Source: Actinomycetes bacterium
GTDB lineage: Bacteria > Actinomycetota > Acidimicrobiia > Acidimicrobiales > Bog-793
Length of the DNA stretch: 64,000 nt
Reading direction: 5' to 3'
Assembly: GCA_021809425.1 (NCBI GenBank)
Contig: JAKBAA010000003.1
Location: forward strand, 39,646-103,645
Position numbers and translations under genes: made by a program
Notes under the pieces: model-generated
Database searches by the model: none
The model's input: the letters and a program-made list of their open reading frames with translations, nothing else
What the model was told of the DNA's origin: nothing
In this document: positions 34,373-42,848 of the stretch, piece by piece
Layout: every line of letters begins with the position of its first letter
Position numbering within the stretch: position 1 is the stretch's first letter

Positions 34373-35095
34373 TCAGTGCCCTTCCGACTCCCTCGCGTAC
34401 ACCTGGGCGGCGTACGCCTCGAGCGCCCGCTCGCACTCCACCAGCACCTGCTCGGCCGCCGCCAGCCCCGACGCCCCGAAGGTGTCGCGCAGGCGGACCT
34501 TGGCCAGCCAGCTCTGCAGCTTCGTCAGGTCGACCTCGTTCTCCTCCAGCTCGGCGTAGCTGAAGTGCTCGGCCACGTGCTCCTTCTCGACCTGTGCCAG
34601 GAAGTCCCGGGCCCGGTCCACGATCTCCTCGTACTCGTCGTCGCGAGCGGCCTGGAACGCCGCCACCACCTCGTCCTCGCCCGCCAGCGCCTGCGACCGC
34701 AGCAGCACCGCCGTGCCACCCATCTCGAGGATCGACCGCCGCAGCGCCCGCAGCGCCCGCTCGTTGGGCGGGGTGTCGGGCAGGGCCGCCACCGAGTTCT
34801 GCAGGTAGATCGCCCCGAGGCCCCGCACCCGCCGCCACACCGTCGCGCGCAGCCGCGTCGGCTCGGACGGCACCCGGTACACGAGGCACAGCCACCCGCT
34901 CCCCCGGGCCGCCCGGCCCCGCCGCCGCGTCGCCGCGGCCGGCGGGTCCGTCTCCGGGTCGCCGGCGTCCCGGCCCGCCGCCGACGTCGCCGGCCCCGCC
35001 GCCGTCTCCTCCGCCGGGCGCCGCCGCGACGCCGGCGCCCGTCGTCTGGGGGTCGCCACCCGACCAGTCTCGCCGACCGGGCAGCGATCGGCCAT
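34373..35095 (-). CDS. ChrB-like protein (chromate resistance regulator N-domain type)
   Basis: 'WLCLVYRVPSEPTRLRATVWRRVRGLGAIYLQNSVAALPDTPPNERALRALRRSILEMGGTAVLLRSQAL'. Start may be GTG 35059. Confidence 0.7.
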   Translation of the reverse strand: MADRCPVGETGRVATPRRRAPASRRRPAEETAAGPATSAAGRDAGDPETDPPAAATRRRGRAARGSGWLCLVYRVPSEPTRLRATVWRRVRGLGAIYLQNSVAALPDTPPNERALRALRRSILEMGGTAVLLRSQALAGEDEVVAAFQAARDDEYEEIVDRARDFLAQVEKEHVAEHFSYAELEENEVDLTKLQSWLAKVRLRDTFGASGLAAAEQVLVECERALEAYAAQVYARESEGH

Positions 35096-35132: not shown

Positions 35133-35146
35133 CTAACAGCTGTTAG
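35133..35146. promoter_or_regulatory. perfect 14-bp palindrome CTAACAGCTGTTAG, likely operator
   Basis: Perfect palindrome overlapping the TAGGAT -10 (35144-35149) upstream of the mini-ORF/COG4280-type operon. Confidence 0.6.
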
Positions 35147-35156
35147 GATATGCAGC

Positions 35157-35207
35157 ATGACCGATTGCTGCTGTGCAGTGACCGAGCCCACCCGGGATCC
35201 GCGATGA
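35157..35207 (+). CDS. polycysteine leader peptide MTDCCCAVTEPTRDPR (candidate cysteine-responsive attenuator uORF)
   Basis: ATG 7 nt after TAGGAT; codons tgc tgc tgt; stop TGA overlaps the ATG of the next gene (ATGA 35204-35207). Confidence 0.6.
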   Translation: MTDCCCAVTEPTRDPR

Positions 35208-36040
35208 GCGGGGCAGGGGCAGCGCTGTTCGCCGCCGTCTTCCTCGCCTGTGCCGTCGAGGCGGTCGAGGCCACCACGATCGTGCTCGCCGCCGGGACGA
35301 CCCGTGACTGGCGTTCGGCGCTCACCGGGGTGGCCGCCGGGCTGGTGGTCCTCGCCGTCGTCGTCGCCGCCCTCGGGCCGGCCCTCTCGACGATCCCGCT
35401 CGGCCCGCTCCGCCTCGTCGTCGGGGGCCTGCTCCTCGTGTTCGGCCTGCAGTGGCTGCGCAAGGCGATCCTGCGGGCGAGCGGCTACAAGGCGCTCCAC
35501 GACGAGGCCGCCATCTACCTCCGCGAGGTCGAGGCCGCCAAGCAGGCGGACCGCCGACCGCGCCACGGGGTGCGCGACTGGTACGCCTTCACCCTGTCGT
35601 TCAAGGGCACCGTCCTCGAGGGTCTCGAGGTCGCCTTCATCGCCCTCACGTTCGGCACCAACCAGCACGACGTCCCCCTCGCCGCCGTCGCTGCGGTGTC
35701 GGCCATCGTGGTGGTCGCCGCCGTCGGCGTCGCCGTCCGGGCACCGCTCGCTCGCGTGCCGGAGAACACCATGAAGTTCGTCGTCGGCGTCATGCTGACG
35801 TCGTTCGGCATGTTCTGGGGCGCCGAGGGGGCGGGGGCCCACTGGCCGCACTCGGACGCCGCGCTCCTCGTGCTGGCGCCGGCCACGCTCCTCTTCGGGC
35901 TCGCCACGACTGCCGTGCTCCGTGCCCAGCGCAACCGCAGCCTCGGTGCCCCCGCCGCGGCGCTCGGCCTCGCCACCGGGCCGTCCCTCCGCCACGGGGA
36001 CGCCACCGCCCGGCGCACCAGCGAGGAGGTCACCCGATGA
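35204..36040 (+). CDS. COG4280-like multi-pass membrane protein (uncharacterised transporter-like)
   Basis: MSGAGAALFAAVFLACAVEAVEATTIVLAAGTTRDWRSALTGVAAGLVVLAVVVAALGPAL...; repeated membrane segments. Alternative upstream ATG at 35150. Confidence 0.75.
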   Translation: MSGAGAALFAAVFLACAVEAVEATTIVLAAGTTRDWRSALTGVAAGLVVLAVVVAALGPALSTIPLGPLRLVVGGLLLVFGLQWLRKAILRASGYKALHDEAAIYLREVEAAKQADRRPRHGVRDWYAFTLSFKGTVLEGLEVAFIALTFGTNQHDVPLAAVAAVSAIVVVAAVGVAVRAPLARVPENTMKFVVGVMLTSFGMFWGAEGAGAHWPHSDAALLVLAPATLLFGLATTAVLRAQRNRSLGAPAAALGLATGPSLRHGDATARRTSEEVTR

Positions 36041-36243
36041 TCGCCCGCCTCAAGGCCTTCGGGGCCTTCTGGTACGACTTCGTCGTCGGCGACGACTGGC
36101 GCATCGCTGCCGGCGTCGTCGCCATGCTCGCCGTCACCTGGGGCGTCAGCCACACGTCGGTGCCGTCGTGGTGGCTGCTCCCGGCCGCCATCGGCACCGT
36201 CCTGCCGATCAGCCTGTGGCGCGCCGCTCGGGCGTCCGGCTGA
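36037..36243 (+). CDS. small membrane protein (68 aa)
   Basis: ATGA overlap with preceding gene; MIARLKAFGAFWYDFVVGDDWRIAAGVVAMLAVTWGVSHTSVPSWWLLPAAIGTVLPISLWRAARASG. Confidence 0.75.
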   Translation: MIARLKAFGAFWYDFVVGDDWRIAAGVVAMLAVTWGVSHTSVPSWWLLPAAIGTVLPISLWRAARASG

Positions 36244-36265: not shown

Positions 36266-37381
36266 TCAGCGGATCGGCGGGACCGCGGCGAGGGCACGAC
36301 CCGCAGCCCGCACCCCGCCGCTGGCGCACACCCGCGCCGGCCGCCCGCCGTCCAGGGCACAGACGCCGGCCGACAGGTAGTTGGCCTCGACCACGAACGC
36401 CGTCCCGCCGAGCCGCTCGCCGAGCCGGCTCGTCGGCTGGCGGACGGCCCGGGCGACCTCGACGATGCCCACCCGGTCCCCGGCGAGCACACCGCTCGAG
36501 GCAACCTGGGCGAGCCCCGCCGAGGTGCCGGCGACGACGTAGCGGTTGCCGAGGTCCACGAAGGGGATCCCCGGCTGCTGCCACCGACCCGCCCCGAAGC
36601 GCGACGCCGTCCCCGCCCGCGGGTCGCCGGCGTAGGTGGCGAACAGCTGGTCGACGGCCGGCGGCACCGGCTGCAGGACCTGGCCGAGCCGGTCGGCCGC
36701 CTCGTACGGGGTGAACGTCACGTACCGGCTCGTGTACCTGCTGTCCAGGAAGCTGAACGTCGGGATGTCGCCGTCCCGGTCGCCCGATGCCGTCACCCGC
36801 AGGTTGGCGAACGTCCCGAACCGGCCGAGGGCGGCCACGAGGGCATACCGGTCGACGGCGCAGAACGGGCAGTACTCGGCCCCCTCGTACACCAGCCGGG
36901 GCCTGCGACCCGTCCCGAGCGGCGGCTGGCCCGCCGTCACGGCGAACGGCGCCCCCTCACCGCCGGTCCCGATCCGGTCGAACGTCGACGTCGGGATCGT
37001 CACGAGCGCCTCCACGGCGGCCGCCGGCGCCGCTGCCGGCGTGCGGTCGGCCCCGTGCACCGTCGACCTCGACGACGCAGCCCCCGCCGACCCCGACGTC
37101 GGTGACGACGGGCCCGACCCGGTGCTCGACACGAGCGCCATCACCCCGGCCACCACCACGACGGCCCCGGCCGCCAGCCAGCCGGCCCGGCGGCCGGCCC
37201 GCCTCCGGCCCGACCCCGTCGGCGGGAGGGCGGCACCCCCGGCGCCGCTCCCTCCTTCCCCGGCCGATCGCCGGGCCGAGGGTGGCGTGGCTGCCCGCGC
37301 CCCGGCTGTCCGGGGCGTCCCGCCTCGTGCCGTTGACCGCCCCGCTACCGCTCGACCCCCGGGACGTTGCCCGTTCGCCAC
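36266..37381 (-). CDS. membrane-anchored DUF929-like protein with CxxC (CPFC)
   Basis: TM 'AGWLAAGAVVVVAGVMALV', 'RPRLVYEGAEYCPFCAVDRYALVAALGRFGTFANLR'. Confidence 0.75.
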   Translation of the reverse strand: MANGQRPGGRAVAGRSTARGGTPRTAGARAATPPSARRSAGEGGSGAGGAALPPTGSGRRRAGRRAGWLAAGAVVVVAGVMALVSSTGSGPSSPTSGSAGAASSRSTVHGADRTPAAAPAAAVEALVTIPTSTFDRIGTGGEGAPFAVTAGQPPLGTGRRPRLVYEGAEYCPFCAVDRYALVAALGRFGTFANLRVTASGDRDGDIPTFSFLDSRYTSRYVTFTPYEAADRLGQVLQPVPPAVDQLFATYAGDPRAGTASRFGAGRWQQPGIPFVDLGNRYVVAGTSAGLAQVASSGVLAGDRVGIVEVARAVRQPTSRLGERLGGTAFVVEANYLSAGVCALDGGRPARVCASGGVRAAGRALAAVPPIR

Positions 37382-37523: not shown

Positions 37524-40500
37524 TCAGTGGTTGCCCGGGTCGCCGAACGTCGCCTCGTCGAGCGCCTTGATCGCCTCGAAGAGACCCCGGGGCGAGCCGG
37601 AGGCGAGGGCCTGCTCGGCGCTGGCGACGACCGCCGAGTAGCGGGACCAGTCGCCCGTGCCGTTGGCGAAGTCGAGCAGGGTCGTGAGCAGGTGGAGCTT
37701 CACGTCGCTCGCAAGCCGCCCCTGCAGGCCGCCGGTGAGGTCGCCCGGCGCGAGCAGCCGCTCGGCTGCTGCCAGCGACCCGCTCGGGCCGGACGGCGAG
37801 GCGAGCGCCTGGGCGAGCGGGGGGCTCAGGTAGCTGGCGATCCGGAGGTCGCACGTCAGCTGGGCCGCCGTCAGCTGCAGGTGGTGGTCGCGACCGGAGG
37901 CGGCGCCGGCAGAGGGGTGGGCTGCCAGCCACTGGACCAGGCGGAGCTGGCCCAGCCAGTAGCCGGAACCCTCCGGCGGGGCGCCGAGGGGCGCGGTGAC
38001 GACGACCGGGGTGGTGAGCACGGGCGCTGCAAGGGTGTCGGCGTCGGTGACCGAGGTCGTCACGAGATCAAGGCAGGCGGCTGGGAAGGTGTGCGGGAAG
38101 CCGGTGGCCGAGGCCGAGTACGGGAACCACCCGGTCGCCGGGTCGACCGGCCCGCTCGGCGTGGTGGCGGTGAGGGTCGTCGGGGTGGTGCCGTCGGCCC
38201 AGCTCGTCTGGAAGGTGAGCACCGCCTCGGGTGAGATGTGGAGGGCCGTCGCCATCCAGGTGACCGGGGTGCCGGCGTGGGTGAAGACGGTGCCCGCCGT
38301 GCCGATCTGGCCGCCGCCCACGCTCTGGACGACCGTGGCCTCGGCGGTCGGGGTGAGGGTGGTCCCCTTCGGGGCGACGTCGTCGACGGTGACCGACGTG
38401 CCGGCCGAGGCGGACGTCCCGTCGGCCTCGGCGACCGACACGGCGACCGGCTCGACCGCCGTGGGCGAACCGGAGGGGGCGAGCACCTCGTAGGTGTGGG
38501 TCGCCGAGAAGGTGCCGCCGGGCCCGACGGTGACCGTGCTCGGCGCCGTGGCGTCGCCCCAGGTGATCGTGGCCGTCTCGGTCTCCCCCGGCTCGGGGGC
38601 GGCGAGGGCGCCCCGGAGGGTGACCGGGGTCATCAGGTTGGCCGTCTGAGGGGAGACGGTGAGGGAGGCGACGGCAAGGGGCGTGTCGAGCACGCTCACC
38701 TGGCCGGTGGCCGGGGTGACGCCGGGGACCGAGGCGGAGACGGCGAAGGGGCTGGTGGCGCCTCCGGCGCTCTCGTCGGCGTAGGTGTGGCTGGCCTGGT
38801 ACTGGCCGTTCGAGACCGTCGCCGTCGAGGTGGTGCCGTCACCCCAGGCGAGCTGGACGGTGGTCGCCGAGCTGTTCTCGACATAGCCCGAGGCGGTCAC
38901 GGTGCCGCCCTCGTCGACCCAGGTGCGGTTGAGCGAGAGGGAGATCGACGGCGCCGGCGTGGGTGGGGCCGTGCAGGTGCCCGTGTTCGTCCCGCTGTAG
39001 AGGCCGTCCAGGGTGCCCTGGCTCAGGCTGTGGTTGGTCGTGCTCGTGAGCACCGACCCGAGCGAGGTCGGCGAGGGGCCGGTGAAGGTGACGGAGTGGC
39101 CGAGCGAGCTCACCTCGATGCTCGTCGGGGACTGGGTCCCCTGGGTGTAGCTCACGGTCGTCATGGCACAGGTGATCGAGGTGGGTGCGGCCGGGTCGAC
39201 GGCGTGGATCCGCCGGACCAGCTGGCCCGGGCGGGCCCCGTTCGGCACGGCGAGACCGGCAGAGCCGAGGGTCGTGTTGACCGACGGGTCGGCGAAGAGG
39301 TGGCGAGCAGAGGCGACCACCTCGGAGAAGGGCTGGGTGCAGAGCGGGGTGCCGAAGATGGCCGGGTCCACCGGCCCGGACGGGGTGTTGGAGCACAGCC
39401 CCGGGATGGTGAAGCCCGGGACGATGGTGACGCAGCCGAGGAACCCGCAGGGCCGCCACCCTGGGAAGTTCAGGCCGTCGAGGGCGTCCTGGAAGATGGA
39501 GGTGGTCGGGATGTCGAGCCTTCCGAGGCCCGCCTTGTTGAGGCCGGAGTTGACGCCGTCGATCTTCCCGGCGACGGACTGGTAGACGGAGAGCACCTTC
39601 TGCCAGGTCGGCGGCCCGCTGCTGCCGAGGAATTGGAAGCCGGACCGGATGTCCCCCACCACCTGGTTGGCGCTCCCGGCCACGTAGGTCTGGTACCAGG
39701 CGGAGGTCGCCGTCGTGGCGGTGTCGATGGCCCCCTTGATGTGGGCGCCGGCCGTCTGGAAGGCCTGCTTGACGGTGTTGAACCAGTCGGTGAGGTTGAA
39801 GCCGGGGTTGCTCAGGTCGAGGGACCCGGTGGCGTTGACGCTGCCGCTCAGGCCACCGACGTCGATGGACCCGGCGAGGTGGAGCTTCTGCGTCCCGACG
39901 TCCAAGGTGAGGGTGCCAGACCCCCAGACGGGCGCGTTGGAGCCCTCGGTCTTGTAGAGGACCGGATCGAGCAGCTGCCCGCCGCCGGAGATGTCCACCT
40001 GGACCTCGGAGCTGTCGAGGGTGAAGCTCAGGTTGGTCGGCTGGAAGCTGAGCGGCCCGGCGGACCACCCCGCGAGGTGACCCTCACCGAGGATCCCGCT
40101 CGGGCTGATCGAGAGGAAGACGCTGGCGAGGCAGGAGCTCGAGTCGCTGGAGCACACCGAGCTGCGTGACGGCGGGCTGCAGTCCGACGCCTGGCCGGTC
40201 GGGGCGGTGCCGCCGACGGCGGTGGCGCCCGAGTTGGCGAGGACGAGGTCGCCGGAGAGGTAGATGCCCTGTTGGAGGCAGAGCGCCGTGCTGTCGACCG
40301 ACGAGTAGGAAAGGTAGATGTTCCGGAGGGCCAGCGGCGGGAGCGAGCTGGTCGAGACGTTGCCGCCGCTCACCTCGTTGTACAGGTCGACCAGGTCGGC
40401 CATGGTGACGCCCTGGTGGCTGGCGATCTGGAAGCCGAGCAGGTCGACGAAGGGTGGGCTTGCCGTGACGGCGAGGTCCACGGACACCCCGAGGTCGCTC

Positions 40501-42779
40501 GAGCCGATCGTCACCGCCCCGTGCGCCCCGAGGGTGAGCGAGCCGCCGCCCGCCGAGCTGACGCCGATCTGGAGCGCCAGGTCGTTGATGGTCACGAACG
40601 ATGCCGGCGAGGGCAGGGTCCACCCACTCGTGGCGTTGCCGCCGGTGAGCTGGCCGGTCAGGGTGACCGAGGCGTTGCCGCCCGAGGCCCCGATCGACCC
40701 GGTGACCGAGACGTCCAGGCAGACGTCCCCCTGGGGGAGCGAGCCCTGGAGGCTCTGGGGGCAGGTGGAATTGCCCCCGGTGCCCGGGGCGAACAGCTCG
40801 ATGTCCCCGCCGGCGCCCACCGAGACCTTGCTGCCGGTCTCGGAGATGGAGAAGTGGAGCTTCAGCTGCTGGATCGGCCCGGCCGCGAGCGTGATGGTGG
40901 GGAGGTGCACCGTCAGGCTGGTGGTGGTGCCGCCGAACAGGGGGATCTGGCCGTCGATCACGACCGGGCCGGTCAGCAGGTTCGCGCAGGCGCTCACCGA
41001 CAGCTTGAGGAGCCCGCACAGACCGGTCTTGATGGCGCTCGGCAGCGGGGTGCTCGCCGACAGGCCGACCCCGGCGGACGCGTTCAAGGTGAACGAGCAG
41101 GTCGGGTCCGACGAGCTGCAGAGGACGGGCTGGAAGTAGGCGCGGGTCGGCGCGTCGAGCTGGCTCGACGGGATCGAGAGGTTGGCGGTCGACACCACCA
41201 GGGCGAGGCTCGGCAAGGTGAAGTCCGGGTTGACCGTGGTGCCGAGCAGCTGGCTCAGGGTGAGGGTGGTGGTGGGCCGGGCGGCCACGAGCAGCGAGCC
41301 GCCCGAGCCGAGCTGGGCCCGCACGAGCACGTCGGCGCTGAAGGAGCCCGAGCCGAGCGGGACCGTCGCCGTCCCCTCCACGGCCACGGTCACCGAGCCG
41401 GTGCCGGGGATCTCGAGGGCGAGGTCGAGCCCGGACAGCTGGAGGTCGGGCGTGCCGGACGGGAAGGCCGGCAGCCCGAGATCGCCGGCGAGGGTGGCGG
41501 CGTCCAGGGTGGCCGTCGTCGTGAGCTCGACGCTCAGTCCCGTGCCGGAGCCGAGGCTGGCAGCCACGGTGAAGCTCGACCCGTCGAGCGTGGCCGTGGC
41601 GTCGAGGCTGGCCGCCGTGGTGGCGCCGATCGACCAGCTCACGGTCGTCTGGTCGAGGGTCAGCCAGCTCTGTCCGAACGGCGCCGTGACCGTGCCGAGC
41701 GAGGCGTCGAGGGCGACGGTCACCCCGCCGGCCGCATCGGTGATGGAGAGGTCGGCGGTCACCGGCACCTGGCCCGAGCGGGGAAGCGTCACCTCGGCCG
41801 ACCCGCTGGCGCTCGCCGTCCACGTGCCCGAGCCGCCCTGGATCGAGAGGGTGAGCGAGCCCAGGCTGAGCCAGCTCGGGGTCTGCAGCGTCGGGGTGAA
41901 CGAGGCGGACAGGTCCAGCCCGGCGGTCACCGACGGCGCCGAGGACAGGCTGAAGCTGGCCGACCCGGTGAGCGACCCCTGGAGGGTGATGCCGCTCGGG
42001 CTCACGCCGAGGTCCGAGACGCCGGTCGCCACGGCGCCCGTCGTGGCGAGCACGCCGCGAAGGCTGAGCCCGGACCCGGCGACGGAGAGGTTGCTCCCGA
42101 GGAAGCTGCCGGCCGACGCCGGAAGCGCGGCCGTGTCGAGCGTGGTGCCCGAGGACGACGTGGTGAAGGCGAGGAGGGCGCTCGACAGCTGCACGGCCGG
42201 CCCGGGTGCACCGGCCGAGACGAGGCTCGACAGGCCGACGTTCTGGAAGCCCACGACGACCGAGAAGGTCGGGCTCGTCGCCGTCGCCGACGACCAGCTC
42301 CCGACGACGAGGAGCCCGGCCGACTGGCCGAGCACGCTCGTTGCCCCGGAAGCCCCCTGGAGGGTGAGGGTCGTGCACCCACCGCTCCCGCCGATGGGCT
42401 CGGTCGCCAGGGCGAGCCGGCTGGCGTCGAGCGAGGCGAAGCCGGTCGGACCGATCGGCAGGCTCACCGCGGTGTTGCTCCCGGCGTCGCCCTGGAGGGC
42501 CGACGCGACCTGCGAGCAGGTCATCGTGGCGACGTCGACCAGCGTGGTGCCGCTGGCGGTGGTCCCCGGCCCGGTCACGTCGGCGCTCAGGGTCCCCGTC
42601 GCCTGTGCCCGGCCGGCCAGCAGCACGAGGGCGACGACCAGCGCCCCCACCAGCCCGGCAAGGACGGCGACCACCGAGGCAAGCGGAGCCCGCGGCCGAC
42701 GCCCCTTGGCGAGACCGGACCGCAGCGACGCCGTGGTCCGGGCCGCCGCAGCCCCTTCGGCATCTGCCGAACCGTCCAT
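37524..42779 (-). CDS. giant secreted/surface protein (about 1750 aa) with C-terminal PKD-like domains
   Basis: N-terminal TM 'LASVVAVLAGLVGALVVALVLLAGRAQA', Ser/Thr/Gly-rich beta repeats, 'SLNRTWVDEGGTVTASGYVENSSATTVQLAWGDGTTSTATV...SHTYADES' and second 'ATITWGDATAPSTVTV...ATHTYEV'. Confidence 0.8.
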   Translation of the reverse strand: MDGSADAEGAAAARTTASLRSGLAKGRRPRAPLASVVAVLAGLVGALVVALVLLAGRAQATGTLSADVTGPGTTASGTTLVDVATMTCSQVASALQGDAGSNTAVSLPIGPTGFASLDASRLALATEPIGGSGGCTTLTLQGASGATSVLGQSAGLLVVGSWSSATATSPTFSVVVGFQNVGLSSLVSAGAPGPAVQLSSALLAFTTSSSGTTLDTAALPASAGSFLGSNLSVAGSGLSLRGVLATTGAVATGVSDLGVSPSGITLQGSLTGSASFSLSSAPSVTAGLDLSASFTPTLQTPSWLSLGSLTLSIQGGSGTWTASASGSAEVTLPRSGQVPVTADLSITDAAGGVTVALDASLGTVTAPFGQSWLTLDQTTVSWSIGATTAASLDATATLDGSSFTVAASLGSGTGLSVELTTTATLDAATLAGDLGLPAFPSGTPDLQLSGLDLALEIPGTGSVTVAVEGTATVPLGSGSFSADVLVRAQLGSGGSLLVAARPTTTLTLSQLLGTTVNPDFTLPSLALVVSTANLSIPSSQLDAPTRAYFQPVLCSSSDPTCSFTLNASAGVGLSASTPLPSAIKTGLCGLLKLSVSACANLLTGPVVIDGQIPLFGGTTTSLTVHLPTITLAAGPIQQLKLHFSISETGSKVSVGAGGDIELFAPGTGGNSTCPQSLQGSLPQGDVCLDVSVTGSIGASGGNASVTLTGQLTGGNATSGWTLPSPASFVTINDLALQIGVSSAGGGSLTLGAHGAVTIGSSDLGVSVDLAVTASPPFVDLLGFQIASHQGVTMADLVDLYNEVSGGNVSTSSLPPLALRNIYLSYSSVDSTALCLQQGIYLSGDLVLANSGATAVGGTAPTGQASDCSPPSRSSVCSSDSSSCLASVFLSISPSGILGEGHLAGWSAGPLSFQPTNLSFTLDSSEVQVDISGGGQLLDPVLYKTEGSNAPVWGSGTLTLDVGTQKLHLAGSIDVGGLSGSVNATGSLDLSNPGFNLTDWFNTVKQAFQTAGAHIKGAIDTATTATSAWYQTYVAGSANQVVGDIRSGFQFLGSSGPPTWQKVLSVYQSVAGKIDGVNSGLNKAGLGRLDIPTTSIFQDALDGLNFPGWRPCGFLGCVTIVPGFTIPGLCSNTPSGPVDPAIFGTPLCTQPFSEVVASARHLFADPSVNTTLGSAGLAVPNGARPGQLVRRIHAVDPAAPTSITCAMTTVSYTQGTQSPTSIEVSSLGHSVTFTGPSPTSLGSVLTSTTNHSLSQGTLDGLYSGTNTGTCTAPPTPAPSISLSLNRTWVDEGGTVTASGYVENSSATTVQLAWGDGTTSTATVSNGQYQASHTYADESAGGATSPFAVSASVPGVTPATGQVSVLDTPLAVASLTVSPQTANLMTPVTLRGALAAPEPGETETATITWGDATAPSTVTVGPGGTFSATHTYEVLAPSGSPTAVEPVAVSVAEADGTSASAGTSVTVDDVAPKGTTLTPTAEATVVQSVGGGQIGTAGTVFTHAGTPVTWMATALHISPEAVLTFQTSWADGTTPTTLTATTPSGPVDPATGWFPYSASATGFPHTFPAACLDLVTTSVTDADTLAAPVLTTPVVVTAPLGAPPEGSGYWLGQLRLVQWLAAHPSAGAASGRDHHLQLTAAQLTCDLRIASYLSPPLAQALASPSGPSGSLAAAERLLAPGDLTGGLQGRLASDVKLHLLTTLLDFANGTGDWSRYSAVVASAEQALASGSPRGLFEAIKALDEATFGDPGNH

Positions 42780-42848
42780 GCCACACGCCCCCCCGAGGAC
42801 TACTTCCGGCGTGCTGCTGCCAGCCTCATCCCATCGAATGCCCACTAA

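Follow-up and report, generated by a model that had tools for sequence, protein, structure and literature searches.

The locus raises the question of what a very short open reading frame (ORF) with three consecutive cysteine codons does directly in front of a membrane protein operon. The initial annotation had proposed a two-layer switch, in which a palindromic operator is combined with a cysteine-responsive translational attenuator. We examined this proposal in the window, i.e. the whole stretch of 64,000 nucleotides, and in homologous loci. The source genome is a 3.5-Mb assembly of 179 contigs and probably belongs to the Acidimicrobiales; its relatives of the same order include Acidiferrimicrobium.

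Organisation of the locus

The locus consists of the following features, given with their positions in the window.

34373 to 35095, minus strand: ChrB_N-only (PaaX/Cas2-like) protein, predicted repressor (PF20229, alignment of 29 homologues, structure model)
35133 to 35146, no strand: putative palindromic operator CTAACAGCTGTTAG with TAAC-N4-GTTA as its core; 40 homologous sites have this very sequence as their consensus
35144 to 35149, plus strand: -10 element TAGGAT, partly within the right operator arm; the TANNNT register is kept in 44 unique loci
35157 to 35207, plus strand: coupled mini-ORF MTDCCCAVTEPTRDPR at leaderless position, predicted to pass ribosomes on to the start that follows; counterparts without the cysteine run in nine relatives
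35204 to 36040, plus strand: 278-aa polytopic membrane protein, OFeT_1/GDT1-like (PF16955, alignment of 30 sequences, helical model)
36037 to 36243, plus strand: 68-aa small membrane protein, overlapping the transporter gene and co-conserved with it (position in homologous loci)

Every element of the layout described initially is present and correctly placed. The 14-bp sequence at 35133-35146 is a perfect palindrome, and 7 nt separate TAGGAT from the ATG of the mini-ORF at 35157. The mini-ORF has 16 codons, with TGC TGC TGT as codons 4-6, and its stop codon TGA overlaps the transporter's ATG by two bases (ATGA at 35204-35207). The 278-aa and 68-aa genes overlap by ATGA in the same way. The chrB-like gene (35095-34373) is divergent from the transporter operon, and its annotation as ChrB-like agrees with a strong match to the ChrB_N domain.

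Two further features lie downstream. A gene for a DUF929 protein (36266-37381, minus strand) is convergent with the transporter operon. ARAGORN calls a tRNA-Glu at 38738-38828 on the plus strand, inside a 1773-aa ORF of the opposite strand (37524-42845), and this is probably a false call.

The membrane proteins

The 278-aa protein matches OFeT_1 (PF16955) with 37.8 bits (cut-off 26.9, E 2e-9), while the score for GDT1, 22.2 bits, is below the cut-off of 27. Two ExxE motifs, E19/E22 and E139/E142, are kept in the alignment of 30 sequences. The structure model is helical with a pLDDT of 87, and the search for related solved structures gave no meaningful match. This OFeT/GDT1-like protein may transport a metal. 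A search of the available literature on COG4280 found nothing. The 68-aa protein has no Pfam family, and in almost every homologous locus its gene is found at a distance of about 750-1100 bp from where the transporter starts.

A conserved palindrome overlaps the -10 element

The comparison covered 135 unique homologous transporter loci, drawn from the order and family of the source genome, GTDB species genomes and the class Actinomycetes. No congener with a near-identical locus was found. In 44 of these loci, TAAC-N4-GTTA is present just 5' of the transporter gene with at least 8/9 positions matching, and its right arm lies within a TANNNT -10 element. The 40 perfect sites give a consensus, CTAACAGCTGTTAG, that is identical to the sequence in the window. 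Off-site, only eight 8/8 palindromes were found in 606,632 positions, so 0.003 would be expected per 250 bp. The form that combines the operator with the -10, TAACNNNNGTTANNNT, occurs a single time in the genome of the window. The palindrome is thus likely a conserved operator of the type where a bound protein blocks the promoter by overlapping its -10.

The alignment of upstream regions therefore divides the initial proposal. The palindrome is conserved and the ATGA coupling is found in a subset of the loci, but the run of cysteine codons is absent from the relatives, i.e. the comparison supports the operator layer of the switch and not the cysteine layer.

In four loci (L058, L112, L074, L100) the operator and its -10 are located past the 3' end of chrB, at roughly -630 to -700 relative to the start of the transporter, with the promoter pointing antisense through chrB toward the transporter. 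On the plus strand, an open frame of 216-239 codons extends to the transporter start, on which it ends. L100 has an additional 9-codon mini-ORF that overlaps (GTGA) a start in the antisense open frame. This arrangement may reflect a transcript antisense to the operon's own repressor gene, or no more than an open frame on the antisense strand of GC-rich DNA.

The neighbouring ChrB_N protein as candidate repressor

The divergent gene encodes 240 residues, of which 83-237 match PF20229 with 144 bits (cut-off 23, E 3.5e-42). The N-terminal ~65 residues form an extension with poor conservation among the 29 aligned homologues, so translation may really begin at a later codon; the structure model (pLDDT 83) is confident from about residue 66. 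Its best match in the PDB is PaaX (8a39, E 4e-4), followed by Cas2 proteins. R83 and R88, five residues apart, are invariant in the 29 homologues.

The ChrB of Ochrobactrum tritici represses its promoter at an imperfect inverted repeat that overlaps the -10; its R18A and R23A variants are constitutive, and its response to chromate requires R180, R187 and H229, so that the sensing residues lie within 180-229 (PMC3817168). Judged by their spacing and not by a direct alignment, R83 and R88 would be the counterparts of R18 and R23. The C-terminal chromate-sensing domain is absent from the window protein, in which Pfam matched only ChrB_N. The suggested connection to chromate or sulfate is consequently weak, and chromate is unsupported as the signal.

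The distribution of the operator follows this protein. Among loci with enough flanking sequence, chrB is nearby in 22 of 30 with the operator and in 8 of 80 without it (Fisher 2e-10). In 46 whole genomes, a ChrB at least 59% identical to that of the window is found in 18 of 19 operator genomes and in none of the 27 others (Fisher 7e-12). Both p-values overstate independence since the searched genomes are kin, and the co-occurrence is in part confounded by relatedness. In several of the 18 genomes, chrB is located away from the transporter. Where ChrB_N proteins exist in operator-less genomes, they share only ~28-37% identity with that of the window. Close relatives without this chrB (e.g. G092, G138, G070, G303 and G305) also lack the operator, and in eight loci with chrB the transporter is not preceded by an 8/8 operator.

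A pattern scan of 399 genomes of the phylum, blind to chrB, found the operator with the 6-nt spacing directly before chrB in five genomes, all from one family of another class. Of 16 short chrB genes on plasmids, most of them from Proteobacteria, 11 are preceded within 100 bp by a site matching at least 7/8 positions (0.18 expected), usually as (TG)TAAC-N4-GTTA(CA) ~24-28 bp before the start. For the full-length ChrB L222 (316 aa), no such upstream site was found. Taken as sequence comparisons, these data make the ChrB_N-only neighbour, with its PaaX/Cas2 fold, the likely repressor acting at the operator.

Some of these genes have settings of their own. In the five genomes of the other class (L164, L165, L166, L168, L171) chrB itself is at the leaderless position, with GTG/ATG 6 nt after the -10, which suggests autoregulation. 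Short chrB genes of Alpha- and Betaproteobacteria (L199, L211-L218, L223) adjoin MFS, CDF and phosphatase-type genes, and most have the usual plasmid form or its one-mismatch variant at the same distance upstream. On plasmid NZ_CP098737.1 (L197), a short chrB at 1492-2034 is located beside mcr-5.1, with AAACGGCCGTTA (7/8) 51 bp upstream; it may encode a repressor of the kind proposed here.

A mini-ORF at leaderless position

The start codons behind the -10 peak at one spacing. An ATG or GTG follows it after 6 nt in 12 of 38 operator loci and after 7 nt in 2, with 0-3 loci for other spacings. In the final set of 44 operator loci, ten ORFs of 8-18 codons begin at this leaderless position and end exactly on the transporter start (RTGA/TTGA). 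In three further loci the transporter itself starts at the leaderless position, and one start is neither. Shuffled leaders contain on average 0.52 coupled ORFs, with a maximum of 4 in 2000 runs, i.e. the combination of leaderless position and exact overlap is about 20-fold over-represented. With looser spacing the number rises to 15 of 44, so about a quarter to a third of the operator homologues have a coupled mini-ORF. The remaining ones appear to be led by a Shine-Dalgarno (SD) sequence, and the mini-ORF is thus one of several solutions.

The encoded peptides (e.g. VTIIRRSER, MTYTRNMERRVRER, VTPFDRTS and MVTWTPERGLARAGGLAR) have little in common beyond a frequent threonine at codon 2. In most of the coupled loci a GGAG-like stretch precedes the transporter start. 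In the window no SD was found in the preceding GAGCCCACCCGGGATCCGCG, and this transporter should therefore depend most on coupling.

In mycobacteria, leaderless RTGA-coupled small ORFs are over-represented, and in one example the architecture is kept and the peptide is not (Shell et al. 2015, PMC4633059). A 2025 review (PMC12548453) likewise describes how a ribosome is delivered by a short ORF lying upstream. The window mini-ORF, whose leaderless start is predicted from geometry, fits this class rather than that of the polycysteine attenuators. The distance from -10 to ATG and the ATGA coupling, both part of the initial description, are kept in a subset of relatives.

Alternative explanations

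In a cysteine attenuator, slow decoding of TGC-TGC-TGT at scarce Cys-tRNA would alter the delivery of ribosomes, as a second layer specific to this lineage. Polycysteine ORFs of mycobacteria provide a precedent (Canestrari et al. 2020, as cited in PMC9094748), and ribosome delivery should matter here, given the missing SD. The run itself is improbable, with a chance of ~1.5e-4 in shuffled mini-ORFs, although this is a single case chosen post hoc, and it is unexplained except as chance. In the homologous loci compared, however, no relative has three consecutive Cys in a short ORF before the transporter, the very finding that was to speak against a cysteine-responsive attenuator, and the proposed cysteine switch is therefore unlikely. 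Neither CC nor CCC occurs in the nine further coupled mini-ORFs of the strict set; a single Cys occurs in L005 only, and the mini-ORF of a relative from the same family (L071, VTPFDRTS) has none. A genome-wide search for the leaderless-CCC pattern gave two matches, as did the reversed control. The match other than the mini-ORF, at the beginning of an alcohol-dehydrogenase-like gene, is out of frame, so that the search found no further in-frame CCC ORF with this geometry in the genome. Compared with its shuffles the leader folds worse (z +1.7), with no stable structure and no Rfam family, and it contains neither a terminator nor room for one. Further, the Pfam matches of the transporter do not indicate an evident sulfur role. 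We regard a cysteine-dependent pause as very improbable. (Another CCC, in L033, belongs to an ORF that begins 7 nt ahead of the gene and overlaps it in a different frame, at a locus without the operator.)

The mini-ORF could instead be a chance ORF, with the transporter translated independently from 35204 or from an ATG at 35150, which is in frame and open into the transporter. A coupled mini-ORF is indeed absent from most operator-bearing homologues. The start at 35150 was rejected: it abuts the -10 and is upstream of any start site set by that -10, and the N-terminal extension it would give is missing in homologues, whose M1 aligns with 35204. Independent initiation at 35204 has to contend with the missing SD, and chance with the over-representation of the exact arrangement, which leaves this explanation improbable. 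Equally, the palindrome could be the operator of another regulator of ArsR, TetR or GntR type, with chrB as a passenger. In L169, TAAC-N4-GTTA and an ATG at leaderless position precede an ArsR-family gene, so other regulators can use similar palindromes, and a TetR gene is located ~2 kb from the operator in the window. Against this, the co-occurrence with a window-like ChrB is nearly perfect at the genome level, even where chrB is far from the transporter, and the sites are found before chrB itself in other classes and phyla. We give a different regulator little chance.

Proposed mechanism and relation to known systems

A ChrB_N-controlled transporter operon, in which a leaderless mini-ORF delivers ribosomes to the transporter start, is in our judgement the probable explanation. 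It builds on the conserved overlap of operator and -10, on the co-occurrence with ChrB_N orthologues, and on the coupled mini-ORFs that nine relatives have without the Cys run. A dimeric, divergently encoded ChrB_N-only repressor with PaaX/Cas2 fold would bind CTAACAGCTGTTAG and block the overlapping -10. Its release would allow transcription from 35157, or next to it, to give a leaderless mRNA. A 70S ribosome would then initiate on the 5'-terminal AUG, read 16 codons, stop at the ATGA junction and re-initiate at the transporter start, which has no SD of its own; the same type of overlap would couple the 68-aa protein to the putative metal transporter. As the role of the mini-ORF would be ribosome delivery, its amino-acid sequence, including CCC, would not be under selection.

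With the mycobacterial RTGA-coupled ORFs (PMC4633059) the window shares a predicted leaderless start, a short ORF, the TGA/RTG overlap and an architecture that outlasts the peptide sequence. It differs in lineage, which is probably Acidimicrobiales, and in its specific promoter with a predicted repressor. With the mycobacterial polycysteine attenuators (Canestrari et al. 2020, in the account cited above) it has in common that Cys codons follow one another in a predicted leaderless ORF ahead of an operon. Compared with that account, the Cys codons of the window are not conserved, a second genomic case with this geometry was not found, no sulfur gene follows, and an ATGA joins the ORF directly to the start behind it.

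The ChrB of TnOtChr from O. tritici (PMC3817168) resembles the window protein in its ChrB_N domain, a dyad overlapping the -10 and an Arg pair five residues apart, but the window protein is without the chromate-sensing C-terminal half. The operator is TAAC-N4-GTTA instead of GTAGAT...ATCTAC, and the target is an OFeT/GDT1-like gene instead of chrA. PaaX (8a39) shares the Cas2-like core with the ChrB_N model, although the overlap is partial (TM 0.35 by query) with 16% identity.

Should the doubtful pause at the CCC codons nevertheless operate in this one lineage, the delivery of ribosomes to the transporter would depend on Cys-tRNA or thiol status as a layer added to repression by ChrB_N, i.e. 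a two-layer switch outside mycobacteria. The favoured ChrB_N-controlled operon provides a concrete operator, (TG)TAAC-N4-GTTA(CA), together with a likely repressor family, the ChrB_N-only proteins, whose genes usually carry just the label 'chromate resistance protein ChrB'. This prediction holds across two phyla. It would also extend leaderless coupled mini-ORFs beyond mycobacteria, and the relatives show two arrangements, one in which the transporter itself begins at the leaderless position and one in which a mini-ORF hands over to it.
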